Below are positions 25,816 through 56,215 of a stretch of 64,000 nucleotides of DNA, one piece after another. Every line of letters begins with the position of its first letter. The stretch's first letter is position 1. The position numbers were made by a program, and so were the translations under genes. The notes below the pieces were generated by a model. That model was not told the origin of the DNA. It worked only from the letters and a program-made list of their open reading frames with translations, and did no database searches. The stretch spans positions 1 to 64,000 of the forward strand of contig NW_024881564.1 of NCBI RefSeq assembly GCF_019059575.1, read 5' to 3'. Origin of the DNA: Amphibalanus amphitrite (taxonomy: Eukaryota; Arthropoda; Thecostraca; Balanomorpha; Balanidae).

Positions 25816-28194
25816 TCAAATATGGCGGCTTGGACTGCCGCGTGCGTTAGGCTCCGCCCATAGCTCCGCCCACATGCGTGACGTCATTCGTGTTAGTGGA
25901 CACGCAGAGAGATAGGGGACGACATGGGCCTGGGCCTGCCTGGCAGTCGCAGTCGACTTGCAGGCGTCGGGGTAGCGTTTTCTGTGGTCCTCAACGACCT
26001 GCAGGAGGAACTGACGCTGATCCTCGTCTTTCGTGAGGGCCAGGTTATAGGCCTGCATCAACGCCACTCCGCGCTCGGCGAAGTCATTCACGACTTGCAG
26101 CTCTCGGACCACACGAGCTGCGGCTTGGTAGCTGCTGTCCTCCTCCCAGTGGGCAGGATCCTGCTTGAAGAACCCTGTTTCCAGGTCGAGGATCTTGAAG
26201 AGCTGCTTGGATGACGGGGTGACGAAGCTCGCTACCGTCTTGGTCGCGAGAGTGGCGCTGTTGATGTCCACTGTGGATTTGCGGGGCGGGTCCTCGTCCT
26301 CCTCCTCCTCCTCCTGTAAGTCCATGGCCCGCACCATGTCTCGCTTGACCCCGAGAGGAAGGTCGGGGTCGAAGAGTGCCAGAGCTACCAGCCGTTCGCT
26401 CAAGTACCACAGGTGGCGGCCGAAGACAGGGACTGTTGCCTTCGACAGCTCCTTGTCGGGGTTGGCGTGGAGAGCGTTCATGAAGGCCAGGTCCAGCGCC
26501 GGCGCAGCAGCGGCGAATGGAGTCCGAAAACAAGCGGCGGCGTACGTGCGGACGACGAACAGCGCACAGCGCCTGATGCCCCGGGCCTCGGCAGCGGTCA
26601 ACCGAAACTGCTCCCTAAAGAGGAAGGTCTTCACAGCGTAGATGCCTTTTGCCATCCACCTGGCCCGGTGGAGCGCTCCGGGGCGAGAAAAACGGACGCC
26701 GCGCTTCGGAACTCCGCCGAGAGCAATTACGCAGAGCTCCAGAAGCTCCCGGTAGTCGTCCCGGGGCTGGGCGTGGTCTAGGAAGCGACGAAAGCTGACC
26801 AACAGCTCGTCCCGCTCCGGAACGTCATCGGCGGTGAATGGCTCCGGCGTAGTCCTGTCGATGAGCCTCCATCGGCCTTGGAACCTCTTGAACAGCTGGA
26901 TGTCAGGGCCGCTCGAGATGCTAAGGCAAGTGGAGAAGGCCTTCTCCAGGATCAGTTCGTACACGTGGTGCCGGCAGGCTAGGTGGAGGACGGGCCGATC
27001 CAGCTTTTGCTCGATGAGGGTACAAGCCCCGTTCACTAGCCCGCTGTTCACCGCCGTGGTGTCGAAGCAGAGGCCGCGGACCCGCTTCTCAAGTCCCCAG
27101 TCCTCCAGCGCAGTGAACACGGCCTGGGCGCAGTCCTGTGCTCGGCCGGATGGGAGTTTGGGGACGGCGAGGAGCTTGGCCACTCCACCCCCCGACACCA
27201 GGACCGGGAGCCGGTCGACGCTCCCTCCTCCTCCATCGCTCTCGGGGACGATCTTTCCGTCCCAGTGGACGATGAGAACGACGTCGGGGTTGAACGCGGC
27301 CTTGATCTCTTTTGAAGCCTCCTCGCGGAACCTCATCCGAGCGCGCCTGAAAGATTCGCGGTTCAGTACCAGCTCGGCGGGGTCATGTCCAAAGTTCCGT
27401 GCTGCAGCTGACAACAGGTGAACCGCATTGCGGTTGGACAGCTTGGTCCGGTCGAGCGCGGCGCCCAGTTCACTGCTGAGGACGGTATTTCGCCTGCTCG
27501 CCCGCATGCGCTTCGGAGTATGTGCCGACGTTGAGGGCCTCTCATTGTTGCCATCGTCGGAGACGTTTCCTTCGAGTGTGCGCCGCAACGGTCGGGTAGG
27601 ACTATTGCCAGCACTAGCAATGGAGTCGCCAGAACTGCCCGCGGAAGAACTGTCCGAAAGCACAACAGATCGGTCCAGCTCAAGGCGCACTTTCGCCTCC
27701 GCTTCCGTCCTTCGGCGATTCGTAGACTCTAACTTCTCATTGGCTTTCTTCTCTTTGACAGCAAGGGACATGTCTCTAGAACCGAGAGAACCGCGGGGCT
27801 CATCCTCTCTTTGGGCCAGCAGGAAGGACCGGTCTTCTTCCTCTGTGAGGAGTGTAAGCGCGTCTTGATGCGCGATGTCAAAGAGGCGACGCAGGGATAC
27901 GACGAATGCATCCTCCCTCGCCACCTGAGTCGGCCCGCGCTTTGACTTGCTCTTCTTCAAGGAGACCCACTCATCGTAGAGTCGGATGAGTTTGTCGCAC
28001 GCCCGGTGGGCTGCCTGGACCGGAATACGTGCTCGGGTCCAGAATGCGAGTACCTCATCGATCACCCTGGCTGCCGCGGGCTTCTTCTCGTGCTTTAGTT
28101 CCAAATGAAGGTGCAAGAAGAGACGGAGAACTTGTCCTCGCGTTGGGAGTCGGCTTCCCGTAAGTTCGTTCAGTGTACTACGAACAAGGTACAC
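25816..28194 (-). CDS. hAT-type transposase, open frame lacking its 5' exon
   Basis: A 792-codon uninterrupted frame. Residue landmarks: IVHWDGK (first acidic residue about D312), LCFDTTAVNSG (D378), LACRHHVYELIL (C407xxH410, the C-x2-H motif of hAT enzymes), HRARWMAKGIY (about 509-519) and VVNDFAERGVAL (E698 or E707 as the candidate catalytic glutamate). From memory these motifs mark a widespread family of arthropod and cnidarian hAT-like proteins. Residues 150-235 are a Ser- and charge-rich linker, and 627-636 is an acidic run. The first codon given is GTG and the open frame has no ATG before residue 141, while ACACAG lies just upstream at 28200. So a 5' coding exon between 28200 and 28500 is likely. 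No frame damage is seen; the element may be young. Confidence 0.85.
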   Translation of the reverse strand: MYLVRSTLNELTGSRLPTRGQVLRLFLHLHLELKHEKKPAAARVIDEVLAFWTRARIPVQAAHRACDKLIRLYDEWVSLKKSKSKRGPTQVAREDAFVVSLRRLFDIAHQDALTLLTEEEDRSFLLAQREDEPRGSLGSRDMSLAVKEKKANEKLESTNRRRTEAEAKVRLELDRSVVLSDSSSAGSSGDSIASAGNSPTRPLRRTLEGNVSDDGNNERPSTSAHTPKRMRASRRNTVLSSELGAALDRTKLSNRNAVHLLSAAARNFGHDPAELVLNRESFRRARMRFREEASKEIKAAFNPDVVLIVHWDGKIVPESDGGGGSVDRLPVLVSGGGVAKLLAVPKLPSGRAQDCAQAVFTALEDWGLEKRVRGLCFDTTAVNSGLVNGACTLIEQKLDRPVLHLACRHHVYELILEKAFSTCLSISSGPDIQLFKRFQGRWRLIDRTTPEPFTADDVPERDELLVSFRRFLDHAQPRDDYRELLELCVIALGGVPKRGVRFSRPGALHRARWMAKGIYAVKTFLFREQFRLTAAEARGIRRCALFVVRTYAAACFRTPFAAAAPALDLAFMNALHANPDKELSKATVPVFGRHLWYLSERLVALALFDPDLPLGVKRDMVRAMDLQEEEEEDEDPPRKSTVDINSATLATKTVASFVTPSSKQLFKILDLETGFFKQDPAHWEEDSSYQAAARVVRELQVVNDFAERGVALMQAYNLALTKDEDQRQFLLQVVEDHRKRYPDACKSTATARQAQAHVVPYLSACPLTRMTSRMWAELWAEPNARGSPSRHI

Positions 28195-28722
28195 AGCTGT
28201 GTTTGACCTTGTCGTCGCAATCGTATCTCAACCCACGGTTGACGGTGGTTAGACGAAAAAAGGTCGACACTCGACAGCCACCAAGTGTAGCGTGCACACT
28301 GCAGTCACGTAGTTCACTGGTCGGGCACTGTCGGGGCCGCGGCACAGCCGCCCGGTCCACCGAGCCGGGTCATGTTCTGGGGGCGAAGGGCAGCTGCCGG
28401 CGGCCAGTCTCTGGATGCGCGCAGGGGCGGTCACGCGCGTGCATTGAGGTGAGGCCCGGGTGTGACCGTCACAATACGCTGAAAATGCAATTTAAGGATG
28501 GAAAATGTTGCTCGGAATATGTTTCAAGTAAATTTGCAGAAGTTCATTTTAAAAAAAATGTCAACTTTGACCTCAATTCGCGACCTCTAAACCTTAATAT
28601 TTTTCAAAATCCTTCCGCACATATTATTTTCTACGGGAATGGAACCAGAAAACCACCCGCACGCCTAAAAATCTGATAATTTTTTTTTCCACCCTATTGT
28701 TAAGTGCCACCCTAACGCACAC

Positions 28723-33282: not shown

Positions 33283-35505
33283 ATGCAGCTCACGCCGCTA
33301 CTATGCCTGTGCGCCGCGGGTGTGACCCTGCTGGAGAGGACGGCGTCCGCTGCTCCGGACTCAGCCGCCAGTCAGCCCGCAGCTGCCCACATCGTCAGGG
33401 ACGTCTCGGAGGCGTGTGCCGAGGCTGCGCGCGGTGAGATTGAGCGGCAGCTGATCGCAGCGCGAAACCAGAGCCTGGCAGACACGAGCTCAGCGCAGCA
33501 GCAGACCGTGCAGGAGACCCTCGCTGCTCTCCAGAGAATCCTGCAGGAGATCTGGAGCAGCCGGTGCTGCGCGCAGGAGTCGCCTGCCGCCGCCAGGACT
33601 AGAGGTGGAAATGAATATTAGTCATTAGTCAAAAATTAGTCGACTAACGTTAGTCAAGCGCTTTTTTAGTCAGTCAAAAGTCAGTCAACCAAAATGTTTG
33701 TTAGTCATTAGTCAGTCATTAGTCAATGATTTTGGTGCATATTAGTCGACTAATTTGTCGTGTTTCGTGAGGTGACCTAACCCTCGCATGTGTAGGGGGG
33801 GGTCGGATGGACCCCCCCCATGGTTTTTCGCGAATAACTCGAGCAAAAAGCGGCCGATCGGGACAAAACTTTCAGTACCCTCGAGTTGATCAATTTTACA
33901 CCTACTCTTAAACTTTCACGACCCCGACCCAAATGACCTTTGATCTGTGAACAGATTCTCGAGACCATGTTCGGCCGGAATCGCGATTTGGCGTATGTCA
34001 GCTCACATTATCCGCGCGTTTCCAGTCTTTTTGTGATTATAAACGTCCAAACATCTGAAATGATGTTCGTCCCACGCATTACGGTGGGTGTCAAGGTCAC
34101 CTGAAGGTCAGGTCAGGTCATTGACCTTGGATGACCTCGGTTCACTTTTTCGAATTTTACATGTTTCTAGGGTAGTTTTCGGGCTGATTTCGAATTTGGC
34201 ATCCATTTCAACATTTACGAAGTAGTTTTAGTGGCTTTGTAACATGTTACGACGCCGTCAGTGGTAGTTGACACCTACTATGGATAGCCGGCAGGACGCC
34301 TACTGGTCGACCTGACCTGACCTGACCCGACCTGGCCTAAATGCATGCAGACATCATCTGTGATCAAAACTAACATGAAGTTCGTGATCAGCACCCCGAA
34401 AAACCCCATAACAGCTTCACTTTACGACGAAACTCTAGCAGGTCCCGATTTTCCCGACGTTTGGGTCATTGACCTGACCTGGAAGGTCAACCAATGATCT
34501 AGGACCTTAAAATTGGGTATCATCGGCTTCCTCTCGTCACGGGCAGCACGCTCGTTTTTTTCCCGCGAAGCTCTAGCTTGATCAGGGGCCGAACAGCAGA
34601 GGGGGGGGGGGGGTTCAGTCGACCCCCCCCCCCTACACATTAGACGCTGGCAAACGCCGCACACATGCGAGTGTTAACCCGCGCCCCACTGGGGTCGCCG
34701 GCCGAACGCGCTCGGCTGGAGGGGGTAAATTTTACCCCCTCCCCCTGTTATCTCCCGAACCAGGCGTCGTAGTGGCCGACAAGATATCTTGCGCTCGCTT
34801 CGCATCGCGGTGGCCATGAAATAATAAGGGATAAAACTTGGGATCGATTGGTGTTCTTCCAGTGTCGATCAGACGTCTAGAAGTTTAGATATTCGCGAAA
34901 AAAAAATTTGCTTTGCTTGTAAATTCCGAAATTTAGTCAAATATTAGTCAAAATCGAGAAAAATGGCGTTAGTCATTCATTAGTCAGTCAAGCTTTTTGA
35001 GACGACAGATTAGTCAGTCAAAAGTCAGTCAACCAAAATCGTCATTAGTCATTAGTCAGTCATTAGTCAAGATTTTGGAAAACGTTAGTCATTTCCACCT
35101 TTAGCCAGGACGCCGGAAGACGGCGAGTGTCCGTTCGGCTGGAGTCGTCATCAGAACAGGTGCTACTTCGTCACCCTGCAGAAGACCACCTGGTACCTGG
35201 CGCACCGCTCTTGCGCCAGTCTGCAGCGGCGGGCCCGGCTGGCGTCGGTGCACCTCGAGTCCAGTGAGTTCATCGACGCTCTGCTTCAGGACGCGCCTGA
35301 CGTGTGGGTGGGCCTGGTTCGTCTGAACGATGACGGGGAGTTCGTGTGGAGCGACAACTCAGCCCTGGACTACACCAACTGGTTAGAGGATCAGCCCAAC
35401 AACTACGACGGAGAACAGGACTGTGTCCTTCTGGAAGGGAGCGGGCATAAGTGGAATGATAGGAAGTGTGATTTGCAGCAGTATGCCTTGTGCCAGCTTG
35501 ATTAA
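33283..35505 (+). CDS. Secreted long-form C-type lectin, split by a transposon-derived intron
   Basis: Exons 33283-33604 and 35105-35505 join in frame to give 240 residues plus stop. Residues 1-23 are a signal peptide. Residues 36-95 are a helical neck with heptad-like character, an NQS sequon and a CC pair (RCC), suited to oligomerisation. Residues 116-240 are a carbohydrate-recognition domain of the long form with cysteine pairs 116-127, 144-237 and 214-229. The calcium/sugar site shows QPN (204-206), intermediate between the EPN and QPD classes, and an intact WND (224-226). The domain motif DVWVGL is present. The only interruption is a 1504-bp TIR element; without splicing, translation stops after residue 112 and the lectin domain is lost. 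Likely roles are sugar binding in immunity or attachment, by family. Confidence 0.85.
33781..34673. mobile_element. G-run hairpin element nested in the lectin insertion
   Basis: The ends are CCCTCGCATGTGTAGGGG and (reverse complement) CACTCGCATGTGTG, flanked by CTAA on the left (33777-33780) and TTAA on the right (34674-34677), i.e. a diverged TTAA duplication. Terminal G-run/C-run hairpins enclose TCGGATGGA and TTCAGTCGA. The interior has many AGGTCA/TGACCT words and matches 7640-8160 and the 59.5-62.5 kb element. Confidence 0.7.
34678..34935. mobile_element. Partial second G-run element sharing the same TTAA
   Basis: Starts CCCGCGCCCCACTGGGG immediately after the TTAA at 34674-34677. It is followed by a GGAGGGGGTAAATTTTACCC hairpin and TTATCTCCCGAACC, the standard left-end order of this family. 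No right end is recognisable before the TTAGTCA repeats resume. Confidence 0.5.
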
Positions 35506-37117
35506 TTTTAAATTTTAAGTACTTATTTGCAGTAAATCTATGCATCGCAAAAAATTACGAAATGTGCACTGTGCACATTGATAGGTCAGTTGAACGGTTT
35601 TTGGCATTAGTCAGTACCTACTTCATTGCTGCGGTGACTTTGCAGCGCCTTTGCCCTTTGTCCTCGAAGCAAAGCGATGATCGCCTATCTTCGTCTTATA
35701 ACCTACGGACAGAGTAGGTCACTCATATACACACAAGACAGGCTCGTGAGCGTGCCCCCATTGTCGAGCTCGAGACTCCAGAAAACGAGTCCCACCGGTT
35801 CAGAGCTAACGTGCTCCGATTGAGGTACCGAGAGACTTGCTCAACCGACCCGGAAATTAGCGGGCAAACCCGCGACAAAGAATTAAAACCGGTAATGTCA
35901 CTGGACAAGAGATAGACGTGCGTGATAATGAGTACAAGACACGTGTGTTTACAGTTGGTTCCGGCAATGTGTTTTAGATCTGAAGTGGGCTGCCAAAATG
36001 GGCTGCCGAACTGGGCTCGGGCAACACGTGCGATCCGAAAGTCTATCGGGCCTCCTTGGTGGTCATGTAAGTACGGCAAGATATAGGTAGGATCGTGCAA
36101 GAGTTTAGTAATTACAAGAATTTACTACGGTAGTTAATTCTTGGTGGGCGCGGTAGGTACTCGGTCTGATGCAGTGTTTTGAGTCAACGACATTGGGCTC
36201 TCAAATTAAATACGCTTTTATCTCTAAATAAACTTGTTATGCTTATAGAATAAATAGGGTGTGCATTAGTTTGTTTTGCATTTCTTTTCCTTCTTCACGT
36301 CATTTTTAAGTGTGGAAGAATTATTGCATTATGCAAGGAACATAACTCAGCACATTTGTGGTTCAACACCACGATCATGTCAGTCGGTAACGCAATAACA
36401 AGCTTGGGTCGTAGCAGCATTGTATCAAAACTTGCTTACCTACATTGTATAGGTACCTAACACCACAGAACATATTCAATTATCCTTAGCCAAGTCAAAA
36501 ATATTTGGACCAAGTAATATATCATAGGTAGGTTATAGATAGGTATAAGTATTTAATACCAATTCAGGGGAAGCCACTGGAACTATCTAGTGATTCAAGA
36601 TGAATGTTTTTCCGGAGAGCGGGCGAAAGTCGACGGAAGTGCGCCACATCCGTCACCGCTCCGGTTAGGCCAGTCTGTTCAGCGTTAGGCTTGCGGCAGT
36701 GATCCGACCTATCCAAGTGAAAACAAGCCGCTGCGCTCGTATGCATGATGTGCAGCTAGCCGATAATTGAAAGCCTCTCGAACATTCAGCAGTTACATAA
36801 GCGGTGCCATAAAATCGCCGCAAATTGAGTTAAAGAAGTTAACTTCGGCAGTCTTTAGTATCATTTCTTTACTTATGATAGACTAATGCTTTGTGGGATA
36901 ATGTGTGTTAAAAACGCAGCCCTCTCGAGTCACTTTTCTACATTTCATCGAGTTAAATAACGGAGTGCTTATGCTTTTAGTTTTTTGAGACATTAGGTAG
37001 GTACCTAAGATATTGAAATCCTTCAGCCGCGGTTTAATAAAACTCCTTATGTGAAGCATACAAGCGTGCCGCATCTTTTAAAATTGTAACCCGCTAATAT
37101 TTTCATTTCACTGTTAA
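35506..37117. other. 3' flank of the lectin gene; no further gene
   Basis: The nearest AATAAA signals are about 700 bp downstream (near 36224 and 36249), so the lectin polyadenylation site is uncertain. The open frames (for example minus 35723-36100) show no domain features. TACCTA/TAGGTA words are frequent at 36430-36550. Confidence 0.4.
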
Positions 37118-37614
37118 AGGGACTATCCCACCTTTAACATGGGGTTTGAGTTGAGATAGCCAAGTTTGCGGCGAGGTTCAGAAACCACTATCTATCTAGG
37201 TTGCAACCCCCGCGGCCTCTTGGTGTTGAAGAAACCCGTTCCCTTCATTTGAAAATAGGCCTTGCGCAAGGCCCTATCTTCAACATGGAGCGACCGTTAG
37301 TGTGACGTCACCTCGTTTAGTCATTATTATTTAAATGGGTTTGTTTGTTGAAAAATCGCTTAAAACTTGGTCTGAACTTTGTTGTGGTGCCTACAGAGTA
37401 AAAAGAATCAGTTTTATGACAGTAATGTGGCCTGGGGAAGGAGGTAATTTTGGGCTGTGACGTCACATGTTTGAAAGTTTGTGTTTGGAATATGGGAAGC
37501 CTAAGATGTTTAATGAAAAATAAATGCCAGAACCGTGTTCCTGGTCATCCAATCTGTAAAGTCGGGCACAATTTATCTGGTTTTAACAACATTTTAGAAG
37601 GTGGGATAGTTCCT
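37118..37614. mobile_element. TTAA-flanked MITE, second family
   Basis: TTAA at 37114-37117 and 37615-37618. The ends are AGGGACTATCCCACCTT and (reverse complement) AGGAACTATCCCACCTT. Length 497 bp, non-coding. Its terminal sequence differs from the G-run family, so it is a separate TTAA-targeting family. Confidence 0.65.
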
Positions 37615-37618
37615 TTAA

Positions 37619-39260
37619 CAACTCAATTCTCAATATGCAATAAAACGGTAGGGCTCGCGATAATGCTGTGGTCATCGAAGTGCGCTATATGCAAGCTCTT
37701 GTGTCATCTCAAACAAGATATTCGCACAAGTGCCACGATTGACGTTTTTTCAGCCATTTATTCATTAAACATCATTCATCGATCCACCGACAGATCACCA
37801 TCATTAATGTTTTGTTTGGCTATGAGATACCATGCATGGTCACATTTGTACAGCCTTTCTATCCAATAAATTTTCATGGTTTTTATAAACCCAAATAGGA
37901 ATGTCATATTCAGCCCGTCAAACTCTTGCGATTGGCGTTGTGCGACATCCAAGGTCGCAACAGCAAAAATGCTTACTTGCTTGCTTAAACAGTAGGCAGG
38001 TACCCGTGCGCGGTCGCCTAGGGGAACTTATTCGGCAGCATCTGACTCACGTTCCTCTCGCCCAAAGTCGCTGTTAATCCACTGTTGATTCTCCAGTTCT
38101 TTCCGAAAATCTCCGCACACCTCAGCCGCAGCGCGATGACCAATCGGCCGCAGAACTGGAATGGTCACGTGACAGGCAGGTTCCGGTCACGTGACCGTCA
38201 GCGGGTGACCTGACCGGCCGGTGTCGTCGACCTCTGTCACCGATGAGCGCCGCGCCGGCTCTGGCCGGTGATTCAGCCGCCCGGCACCGCCACTCGTGTA
38301 TCGAGTCCGGCCGTCCAGCAACTGTCCGCTCAGAGTCGGGACCGAGCTGACTGGGAAGACCGGAACACGAGTGCCCCCGGCGCTCAGGACTTGCTCTGCT
38401 GGTTCGGTGGCAGTCGCGTAGCCCAGGATGTGTCAGGGATTGAGCGTTGACATGACACTCCCGTGAAGTGTGATCGCATTATGTCAGGATATCTATCGCA
38501 TCAGATATATTTAGAATGAAGCTAACTGCTAACACATGTTTTAGACCAGATGGCCGGGTCACTGGCCAAAAATATGACAGTCATGGTGACAGGGCCTGGA
38601 TCCGACTGGTCATTTTTAGTAAATTGACCAACTGTCTTATGATAATGGCTGTCAGCAAGACATCATGACACCATAAACACACCCCATACAACTCAGGACA
38701 AGCGTGTTTCATATGGACTTCATGGGTTACTCCCTGGAAGTTCGGAATTGCTCTACTTCATGGAGACGATCCAAACCAGAGCACTACGGTAAATCAACAA
38801 TCAATGGGACGGTGGGATCCAGAACGTACAAACGAGAGCTTTGATGTCTATCAATATAGGTAACGCTCTTTCATTCGTCAATCGTCACTCAAAAACTTCA
38901 GTTCTCATCCACACTGTACCGTTTCAGTACATCATTTCGACTTAACTTTCCACCCTCTTCACATTCCAGCCTAAATTCTTAGGGCCAATATCCATCATAA
39001 CATGATGCGCACTTCTAGCAGTTTCTTCAGCCCACGAACACATCCAGGAATCCGCGCCATTTTCACTCCTCCGAAAAACACCCGACCCCTCTCTCCCCGC
39101 GCCCTCCCCGCCCACCGTCTCGATGATTCGGTGACGCCCTCCCGTCCCATCCCGTCCCGTGCCGTGGCGGTCGGGTAGGTCTCACCTGTCCGTACCCGGT
39201 GGTGAGGAGGTCGCTCCGTGCGCCAGCCGCCGCCAGTCATCCACCAGACGCCGAGCCGAC
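37619..39260. other. Upstream region of the four-cysteine secreted protein gene
   Basis: No coding sequence is supported. The distal part has the palindromic E-box cluster at 38163-38196. The 300 bp before the start codon at 39261 are GC-rich with CCCGTCCCATCCCGTCC-type repeats; no TATA box is evident. Confidence 0.4.
38163..38196. promoter_or_regulatory. Paired GGTCACGTGAC palindromes
   Basis: GGTCACGTGAC at 38163-38173 and the full palindrome GGTCACGTGACC at 38185-38196, with GGGTGACCTGACCGG next to it. GTCACGTGAC matches the CLEAR/E-box consensus bound by MiT/TFE and related bHLH proteins. It lies about 1.1 kb upstream of the start at 39261. Function is inference. Confidence 0.3.
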
Positions 39261-54889: not shown

Positions 54890-55309
54890 AAATTCTTTTC
54901 GCCAACAATGCCGCCTCCTACAATTCTTTGACGACGAACACTCGAGTGGTTTGACATTAGGACGTTTATAACTTTATGGTCCTGCACGGCACTTGCATTT
55001 TGTGTTGACTGCAATAACATTGATGCCATTTTCAGATGATCTTGCCGAGCCATAAACACTTCGACGTTCGTGCTTGGATGGTCTGAAGATTGACGTCAGG
55101 AAACCACTGAGTCGGCTTTATACAAGTTCCGTCCATTCTTGTCTGTATATTTTCGTGGCATCTAAACTCTAAAGGATAAAGTTTTGATGCATTCTTTTTA
55201 CCCACTTGAGGCTTTTACAGTTGGCTATATGTGATGCATTTTGATGTTTGGATCACATCATGTTCAAATGCATTTCAGATCGTAGATATGTAGTAAATGT
55301 ACTATTTAT

Positions 55310-56211
55310 CCCTCGCCCGCACATGGGGGGGGTGGTTGCCACCCCCCCCCCCCAGGTAGTCTTTCTGCTCTGCACTCAACATTTTTAGAGCTAGAAAGCT
55401 GATTTTTCGTATAGCTGCTCCTCTATCCTTTCTTGATGTCCACTGAAAATTTCAAGTTTCTGTGATTTTCGGTTTCGGAGATATGACCTTGTTTTTCAGG
55501 TCATGTCATGACCCAAATGGCCAATTCTCAACATCTTGCGCTGGCTATGGGCCTTGTGAGCTTTTGACACCTTGATTTCGGCCTTTTTTGCCAGTCTTAC
55601 CTCCCAACTATCATGGAACATGTTGTTCGACGATGTACAGATGTCAAGGTCAAGGTCAAGGTCAACCTAGGTCATCTAAGATAATTGCGTTTTAGGTAAG
55701 CGGAAATTACTTTTTGTCAAGTTTTTTGACTACATTTTTTGTAAAAGCTTCTCAGATCATGATTTCATGCAATATGGACACAAAAACAATCGGTGCACAC
55801 ATAAGTATACACACAGACACACACAGACATACAAACACGTATTATTGACCTTGACCTAACTTGACCTGACATGACCTCAGCAGCAAAAAATCTGGTCGGG
55901 TAGTGTGACAAGGAGGTTCTAGCTGGCTTGGCACCAGAAAACAGCATCGTCATCGGTATATGGTAAGCAGCGCACTTGATATCCAAAGTTGACCCAAAAT
56001 AGCAACATTTTTTAGTTTGACCTGACCTGGAAGGTCAATGACTGACCTGAGAAGGTAAAACTGGGTATCATTGGATTCGTCTCTTCCCAAAGAATCTTTT
56101 TGGTCTTTACCGCTAAGCTCTATCTCCAACAGGAACGAAATGGCGCGGGGGGGGTGGCAACCCCCCCCCATGTGCGTTCTAGGATGGGAAAATGGCATGT
56201 GCGGGCGAGGG
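55310..56211. mobile_element. G-run hairpin element with TTAT duplication
   Basis: TTAT lies at 55306-55309 and 56212-56215. The ends are CCCTCGCCCGCACATG and its complement. G-run/C-run hairpins lie near both ends (GGTTGCC and GGCAACC cores). The left hairpin is followed by GGTTTCGGAGATATGACC, the complement of the family word, and the interior has AAGGTCAAGGTCAAGGTCAA at about 55640. Non-coding. Confidence 0.8.
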
Positions 56212-56215
56212 TTAT

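Follow-up and report, generated by a model that had tools for sequence, protein, structure and literature searches.

A hAT insertion in the coding exon of a barnacle C-type lectin gene and the splice sites it may supply

The DNA considered here, termed the window, is the first 64,000 nucleotides of contig NW_024881564.1 (C67) in the RefSeq assembly GCF_019059575.1 of the barnacle Amphibalanus amphitrite. It contains a C-type lectin gene on the plus strand, with a start codon at 33283 and a stop codon at 35503-35505 (window coordinates throughout), into whose neck-coding part a hAT transposable element has inserted. The element is flanked by a perfect 8-bp duplication and has inverted ends, reading TAGAGGTGGAAATGA on the left and, as reverse complement, TAAAGGTGGAAATGA on the right. 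The unspliced reading frame enters the element and stops shortly inside, after ...TRGGNEY, and both lectin exons are free of stops and frameshifts. An earlier annotation made from the sequence alone, termed here the first-pass annotation, proposed that the element's own ends form an intron. The features at the locus are as follows, with a slash marking each exon-intron border.

33283 to 33604, plus strand: lectin coding sequence 5ʹ of the first-pass intron, covering signal peptide and neck; in the deposited model the exon reaches only to 33563
33434 to 33439, plus strand: GCG/GTGAGA, the highest-scoring donor-like site of exon 1 and a candidate competing donor, in phase with the acceptor at 35104
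33564 to 35108, plus strand: intron of 1545 bp implied by the deposited protein P0001 (exact match, 225 aa), with donor CCG/GTGCTG in the host exon and acceptor GCCAG/G in the right duplication
33592 to 33599, plus strand: left target-site duplication GCCAGGAC, read from the sequence
33600 to 35103, plus strand: non-autonomous hAT element of 1504 bp with ends TAGAGGTGGAAATGA and TCATTTCCACCTTTA, assigned from its duplication, family copies and domain-coding members
33605 to 35104, plus strand: first-pass intron of 1500 bp, with donor GAG/GTGGAA in the terminal repeat (top 15.1% of GTs) and acceptor TTTAG completed by the right duplication's first G (top 4.6% of AGs)
33666 to 33726, plus strand: left subterminal repeat block of the TTAGTCAGTCA type
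35010 to 35070, plus strand: right subterminal repeat block, a direct copy of the left block at 93% identity
35104 to 35111, plus strand: right target-site duplication GCCAGGAC, read from the sequence
35105 to 35505, plus strand: lectin coding sequence 3ʹ of the first-pass intron, with a complete C-type lectin domain (PF00059) and six cysteines

The anatomy given by the first-pass annotation holds to the base, including the duplication, the element borders, the inverted ends and the 1500-bp GT to AG stretch that joins phase 1 to phase 1. In this scheme the donor GT occupies 33605-33606, and the acceptor AG is made up of A35103 and G35104, with which the right duplication starts. The predicted product is likewise as described: 240 aa without a stop, compared with 236 aa at the empty site, a gain of four codons. 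The accompanying observation that all six lectin cysteines are retained is correct for the product but uninformative on the junction; all six lie 3ʹ of the insertion, and they were rejected as support for it. An Rfam search of the window gave 0 matches.

The element belongs to a family that is widespread in the genome. With at most one mismatch, TAGAGGTGGAAATGA occurs 113 + 114 times in the 807.55-Mb assembly, compared with 14 + 16 times for the reversed control. From 100 listed of the 227 places, 40 other copies were obtained as exact end-pairs, so defined that damaged copies and unlisted places are absent; the rest of the 100 comprise the left end of the window copy and 19 omitted places (18 without a nearby exact partner and one extra end at C814). 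These end-pairs are 505 to 6394 bp long. An 8-bp duplication flanks every one of the 40, perfect in 37 and with a single mismatch in 3; this count is biased towards matches, since the best-matching duplication pair was taken at loci with several candidate ends. The duplication consensus of the family is GTnnnnAC. The terminal inverted repeats are short and of the TAGRG/CAGRG type that is usual for hAT elements, with TAGAGGTGGAAATGA at both ends of the 40 copies, which were selected for exact ends. The right end of the window copy reads CCTTTA where the 40 others read CCTCTA, a difference whose rarity cannot be judged from copies chosen in this way. Two distinct members with the same ends encode hAT domains: Dimer_Tnp_hAT (PF05699) in L019 (E 6.6e-10) and zf-BED (PF02892) in L029 (E 7.8e-6). 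Together with the duplications, these domains bear out the hAT identity assigned in the first pass.

Further transposable elements had been described as nested within the element. One family member, L025, aligns with the window copy across all 1504 bp at 92.5% identity, and L014, L040, L009 and L042 share most of it. Because L025 matches over the full length, the composite element moved as a unit and its interior is older than the jump into the lectin gene; nested insertions arriving after that jump are thus rejected. Over 1388 compared columns, 29 changes (2.1%) are private to the window copy.

The insertion is missing from relatives of the gene in the same assembly. A paralogue on C404, which by its length is the contig of deposited protein P0002, matches residues 1-236 in a single open frame, and farther paralogues, such as those on C39, C216, C443, C324, C297, C860 and C608, read through residue 105 in one frame; the intronless state therefore looks ancestral. 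A closer copy of the gene lies on C1368, where the hAT site is empty (GCCAGAAC/GCCGGAAG). Both C404 and C1368 lack an intron at the homologous site, the C1368 gene being interrupted 20 nt further on.

Apart from insertions and deletions, C1368 is collinear with the window at 84-92% identity in the tested stretches (~32.9-33.6, 35.5-39.5 and 53.6-58.7 kb). Matches to the CCT family (PF00118) form seven contig pairs of like score as judged by eye (C401/C887, C381/C154, C222/C481, C96/C1124, C665/C1085, C1029/C1931 and C233/C689), with C297, C272, C11, C335 and C1157 lacking a partner; two of the pairs were compared and are 83-95% identical. The 807-Mb assembly thus seems to retain both haplotypes of a very heterozygous animal. 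Given the collinearity and the CCT contig pairing, C67 and C1368 are most likely two haplotypes of one animal, although they may instead be a segmental duplication. Absence from C1368 and the 2.1% private change of the window copy fit an insertion after the haplotypes split. Relative to C404, the C67 lineage carries 7 silent and 6 replacement changes and the C1368 lineage 7 and 5, with 12 not assignable; these counts suggest constraint on both lineages, most of which may predate the insertions. What the window records is a real haplotype-specific hAT insertion within a coding exon.

The C1368 gene carries an insertion of its own. An insert of ~15.5 kb starts 20 nt downstream of the window element's site, in the same lectin exon (L050, C1368:166900-168000; L049, C1368:151400-152500), flanked by the duplication CGAGTGTC and with ends CAGTGTTGGAA and TTCCAACACTG. 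It looks like a different hAT element, as judged from ~0.5 kb of sequence read at each end; its size comes from match coordinates, and its being one element of ~15.5 kb is an inference. Its ends give an in-frame GT-AG (CCA/GTGTTG with GCGAG/TGT), one of 13 in-frame pairs listed.

A deposited gene model bears directly on the splicing of the window element. The best protein match of the lectin is P0001, "C-type Lectin CRL-like [Amphibalanus amphitrite]", almost certainly annotated on C67 itself, as its contig has the same length (1,272,480). Its 225 residues are identical, letter for letter, to the translation obtained by joining 33563 to 35109. The published model thus treats the element as an intron, with borders unlike those of the first-pass annotation: its donor at 33564 lies 36 bp upstream of the element, and its acceptor CAG occupies 35106-35108, within the right duplication. 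Relative to the empty site, P0001 has 11 residues fewer, the Cys-Cys pair of the neck among them, whereas the first-pass product gains four. The deposited intron was also considered as a product of reads from the empty allele. This was rejected, as such reads would leave a gap of 1512 bp that is non-GT-AG at every placement, compared with the deposited 1545 bp. The P0001 model may be a prediction made without RNA reads. The intronless paralogue's own deposited protein, P0002, deviates near its end from its open frame, which runs on to ...LCQFDQF (L051, C404:408600-409700), and the P0002 model is probably mis-spliced or cut there. For the gene on C1368, no deposited protein was among the five matches listed (candidates 0.55-1.75x query length, 7996 scored).

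Candidate splice sites were scored with a human matrix and ranked among all GTs or AGs of the window. Among the donors, 33434 in the exon falls in the top 1.8%, 33605 in the terminal repeat in the top 15.1% and the deposited 33564 in the top 28.4%; the acceptors at 35103 and 35107 are in the top 4.6% and top 1.9%, respectively. Control donors came from two barnacle CCT genes, whose introns were inferred from reading frame and residue count: of 12 exon gaps, 8 could be solved, 6 of them with several candidates, from which the closest residue count was chosen (one tie). G is present at +5 in 8/8 of these control donors. The donor at 33434 shares this G. Across the enumerated stretch, 101 GT-AG pairs leave an open frame, so any single in-frame pair is uninformative by itself. 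The acceptor built from the right end and the duplication is the sturdier part of the anatomy, the donor being one of several candidates.

The first-pass annotation had further pointed out that inverted ends, combined with a duplication beginning with G, would offer the same signals in either orientation. As anatomy this is borne out: the consensus is GTnnnnAC, and the duplication supplies a leading G in 56/82 copy-strand combinations from 41 copies (window copy included), on both strands in 18/41. Since most duplications start with G and the insertion invariably adds 12 nt, an in-frame GT-AG of this kind is expected in ~45% of coding insertions on either strand (56/82 x 2/3, the factor 2/3 accounting for avoidance of an in-frame TAG), a figure that is also 45% without the window copy. 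The fit at the lectin gene is thus a built-in property of the ends and no sign of selection. In-frame GT-AG borders at transposon ends are weak evidence alone, as this family offers them in nearly half of its coding insertions.

A likeness to introners, suggested in the first pass, finds no support in the family. Over the 41 empty sites, the longest open frames have a median of 96 aa; random positions in the flanks give 93 aa. Among the 41, a host coding frame is recognized at the window copy only. The other recognized spanning frames, at L009 (by eye) and L013 (Pfam), are reverse transcriptases of mobile elements; of the 40 spanning frames besides that of the window copy, 9 were scanned with Pfam, with one RVT_1 and eight without a match. 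The 41 copies are part of the family, and the frame test overlooks insertions in short exons of multi-exon genes. On these copies, a gene-targeted introner family was rejected as unsupported.

The best explanation of the locus is that the lectin gene, until then intronless, received the non-autonomous hAT element in its neck-coding part on one haplotype of the two, and that the element's pyrimidine-rich right end together with the right duplication forms a good 3ʹ splice site, whose AG lies at 35103-35104 or, as CAG, at 35106-35108. The pre-mRNA would then be spliced, at least in part, to this right-end acceptor, keeping the lectin domain in frame. The donor may lie in the terminal repeat (33605) or in the host exon, at the deposited 33564 or at 33434, which scores higher. 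Taking the three donors together, such splicing is, on balance, somewhat favored. Of the three main in-frame options, the first pass proposed one that differs from the public model and has a weak donor in the terminal repeat; the ends of the element are thus candidate intron borders. Points in favor of splicing to the right-end acceptor are the in-frame options, the hAT family, the empty sites on C404 and C1368, the treatment of the element as an intron in P0001 and the acceptor ranks. Additionally, the exons have stayed open although this copy of the element carries its 29 private changes.

Several observations weigh against it. The element's private changes may be older than its arrival in the lectin gene. 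On C1368 both exons are open despite the ~15.5-kb insertion; open exons may thus simply mean a recent insertion. Deposited models in this lectin family are an unsafe guide, because P0002 departs from its own frame. Neither 33605 nor 33564 has G at +5. Moreover, a GT at 33649, inside the element past the stop, is in the top 9.8% and outscores the terminal-repeat donor. The best acceptor of the listed stretch, above both right-end acceptors, is an AG at 35180 within the lectin domain (top 1.1%); use of either site would spoil the protein or cut the domain.

The alternative that survives best is a disrupting insertion, in which poor or no splicing would leave a truncated lectin or none and the exons would be open because the insertion is young. 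The early end of the unspliced frame, the absence of the element from C1368, the open exons there around a much larger insertion and the weakness of the two donors nearest the element all speak for such an outcome, which is a possible, though not the favored, one. However, the good acceptors and the stronger donor at 33434 make some splicing likely, and in the deposited model the element is intronic.

If the right-end acceptor is used, the deposited junction is a tentative candidate for the product: the donor at 33564 would be joined to CAG/G (35108 to 35109), with the loss of 11 residues including the neck Cys-Cys. P0001 equals this translation exactly and comes from C67, the acceptor is the better ranked of the right-end pair, and reads from the empty allele cannot explain the model. 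The donor CCG/GTGCTG is weak and lacks G at +5, however, and the model may be a prediction made without reads; the deposited P0002 deviates from its own open frame. The first-pass junction as the main product, with 12 nt added to the mRNA and four residues to the protein, is unlikely. It gives GT-AG borders, phase 1 to phase 1, with an open frame of 240 aa, and keeps the segment CCAQESPAAAR that is also present in P0002; PMC9860276 describes the same gain of 12 nt and four residues, with an 8-bp duplication, for Aureococcus introners. Nevertheless, its donor GAG/GTGGAA ranks only in the top 15.1% without G at +5, the protein deposited from the contig uses another junction, and the arrangement is expected in ~45% of coding insertions anyway.

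It is improbable that an intron gain still polymorphic has occurred twice at one spot, the two haplotypes carrying unlike hAT insertions at sites 20 nt from each other and both insertions offering an in-frame GT-AG, with a terminal-repeat donor and an acceptor completed by or in the insertion's own duplication (33604 joined to 35105 on C67). Splicing from the cryptic exonic donor at 33434 to 35104 is also improbable; GCG/GTGAGA is in the top 1.8% of window GTs, resembles the control donors and is in phase with 35104, but this junction differs from the deposited model and would remove most of the neck, leaving a protein 57 residues shorter than the 240 of the first-pass product.

Giroux et al. 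in 1994 reportedly described an intron made by the maize element Ds. In the intron-gain review PMC3443670, that work is cited for a Ds-made intron, and transposon insertion is reviewed as a route of intron gain; the two main readings of the barnacle locus correspond to the two options given there. According to PMC5432752, Ds1 begins with TAG and offers, within less than 35 bp of its termini, three donors and two acceptors, and two donors of Ds were shown to be functional by reverse transcription PCR (RT-PCR). Like the barnacle element, Ds and Ds1 (of the Ac/Ds system) are hAT elements with an 8-bp duplication and splice sites near the ends. Unlike Ds, whose donors were tested by RT-PCR, the barnacle element is of another family and its splice sites are predicted. 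PMC9860276 (Gozashti et al. 2022) describes Aureococcus introners with splice sites at their ends, an 8-bp duplication and a gain of 12 nt and four residues; these 12 nt consist of 4 bp of element and 8 of duplication, compared with 5 and 7 in the barnacle. Introner families in that paper number from 5 to more than 2,000 copies per genome, with medians of 30-654 nt in length, whereas the barnacle element is a single exonic case of 1.5 kb. The barnacle locus would belong with known spliced hAT or Ds-like insertions, and some splicing is likely. Among the top matches of the literature searches made, no report of hAT-end splicing in a barnacle was found.

If the element is spliced, a hAT element would have brought an animal gene a new intron on one haplotype, its GTnnnnAC target preference completing the acceptor. 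With the empty site, the single-exon paralogue and the family copies all in one assembly, the step from transposon to intron becomes testable in one heterozygous animal.

Other features of the window lie away from the lectin gene. Two repeats are absent from the collinear C1368: one of ~0.5 kb at 37108-37619, with dozens of listed copies elsewhere at 97-98% identity, and one of ~0.9 kb at 55303-56214, with dozens of listed copies at 95-98% identity. An open frame of 803 aa at 25816-28227 on the minus strand has no Pfam match, and a 524-aa reverse-transcriptase frame (PF00078) at 1210-2784 on the plus strand marks a retrotransposon.
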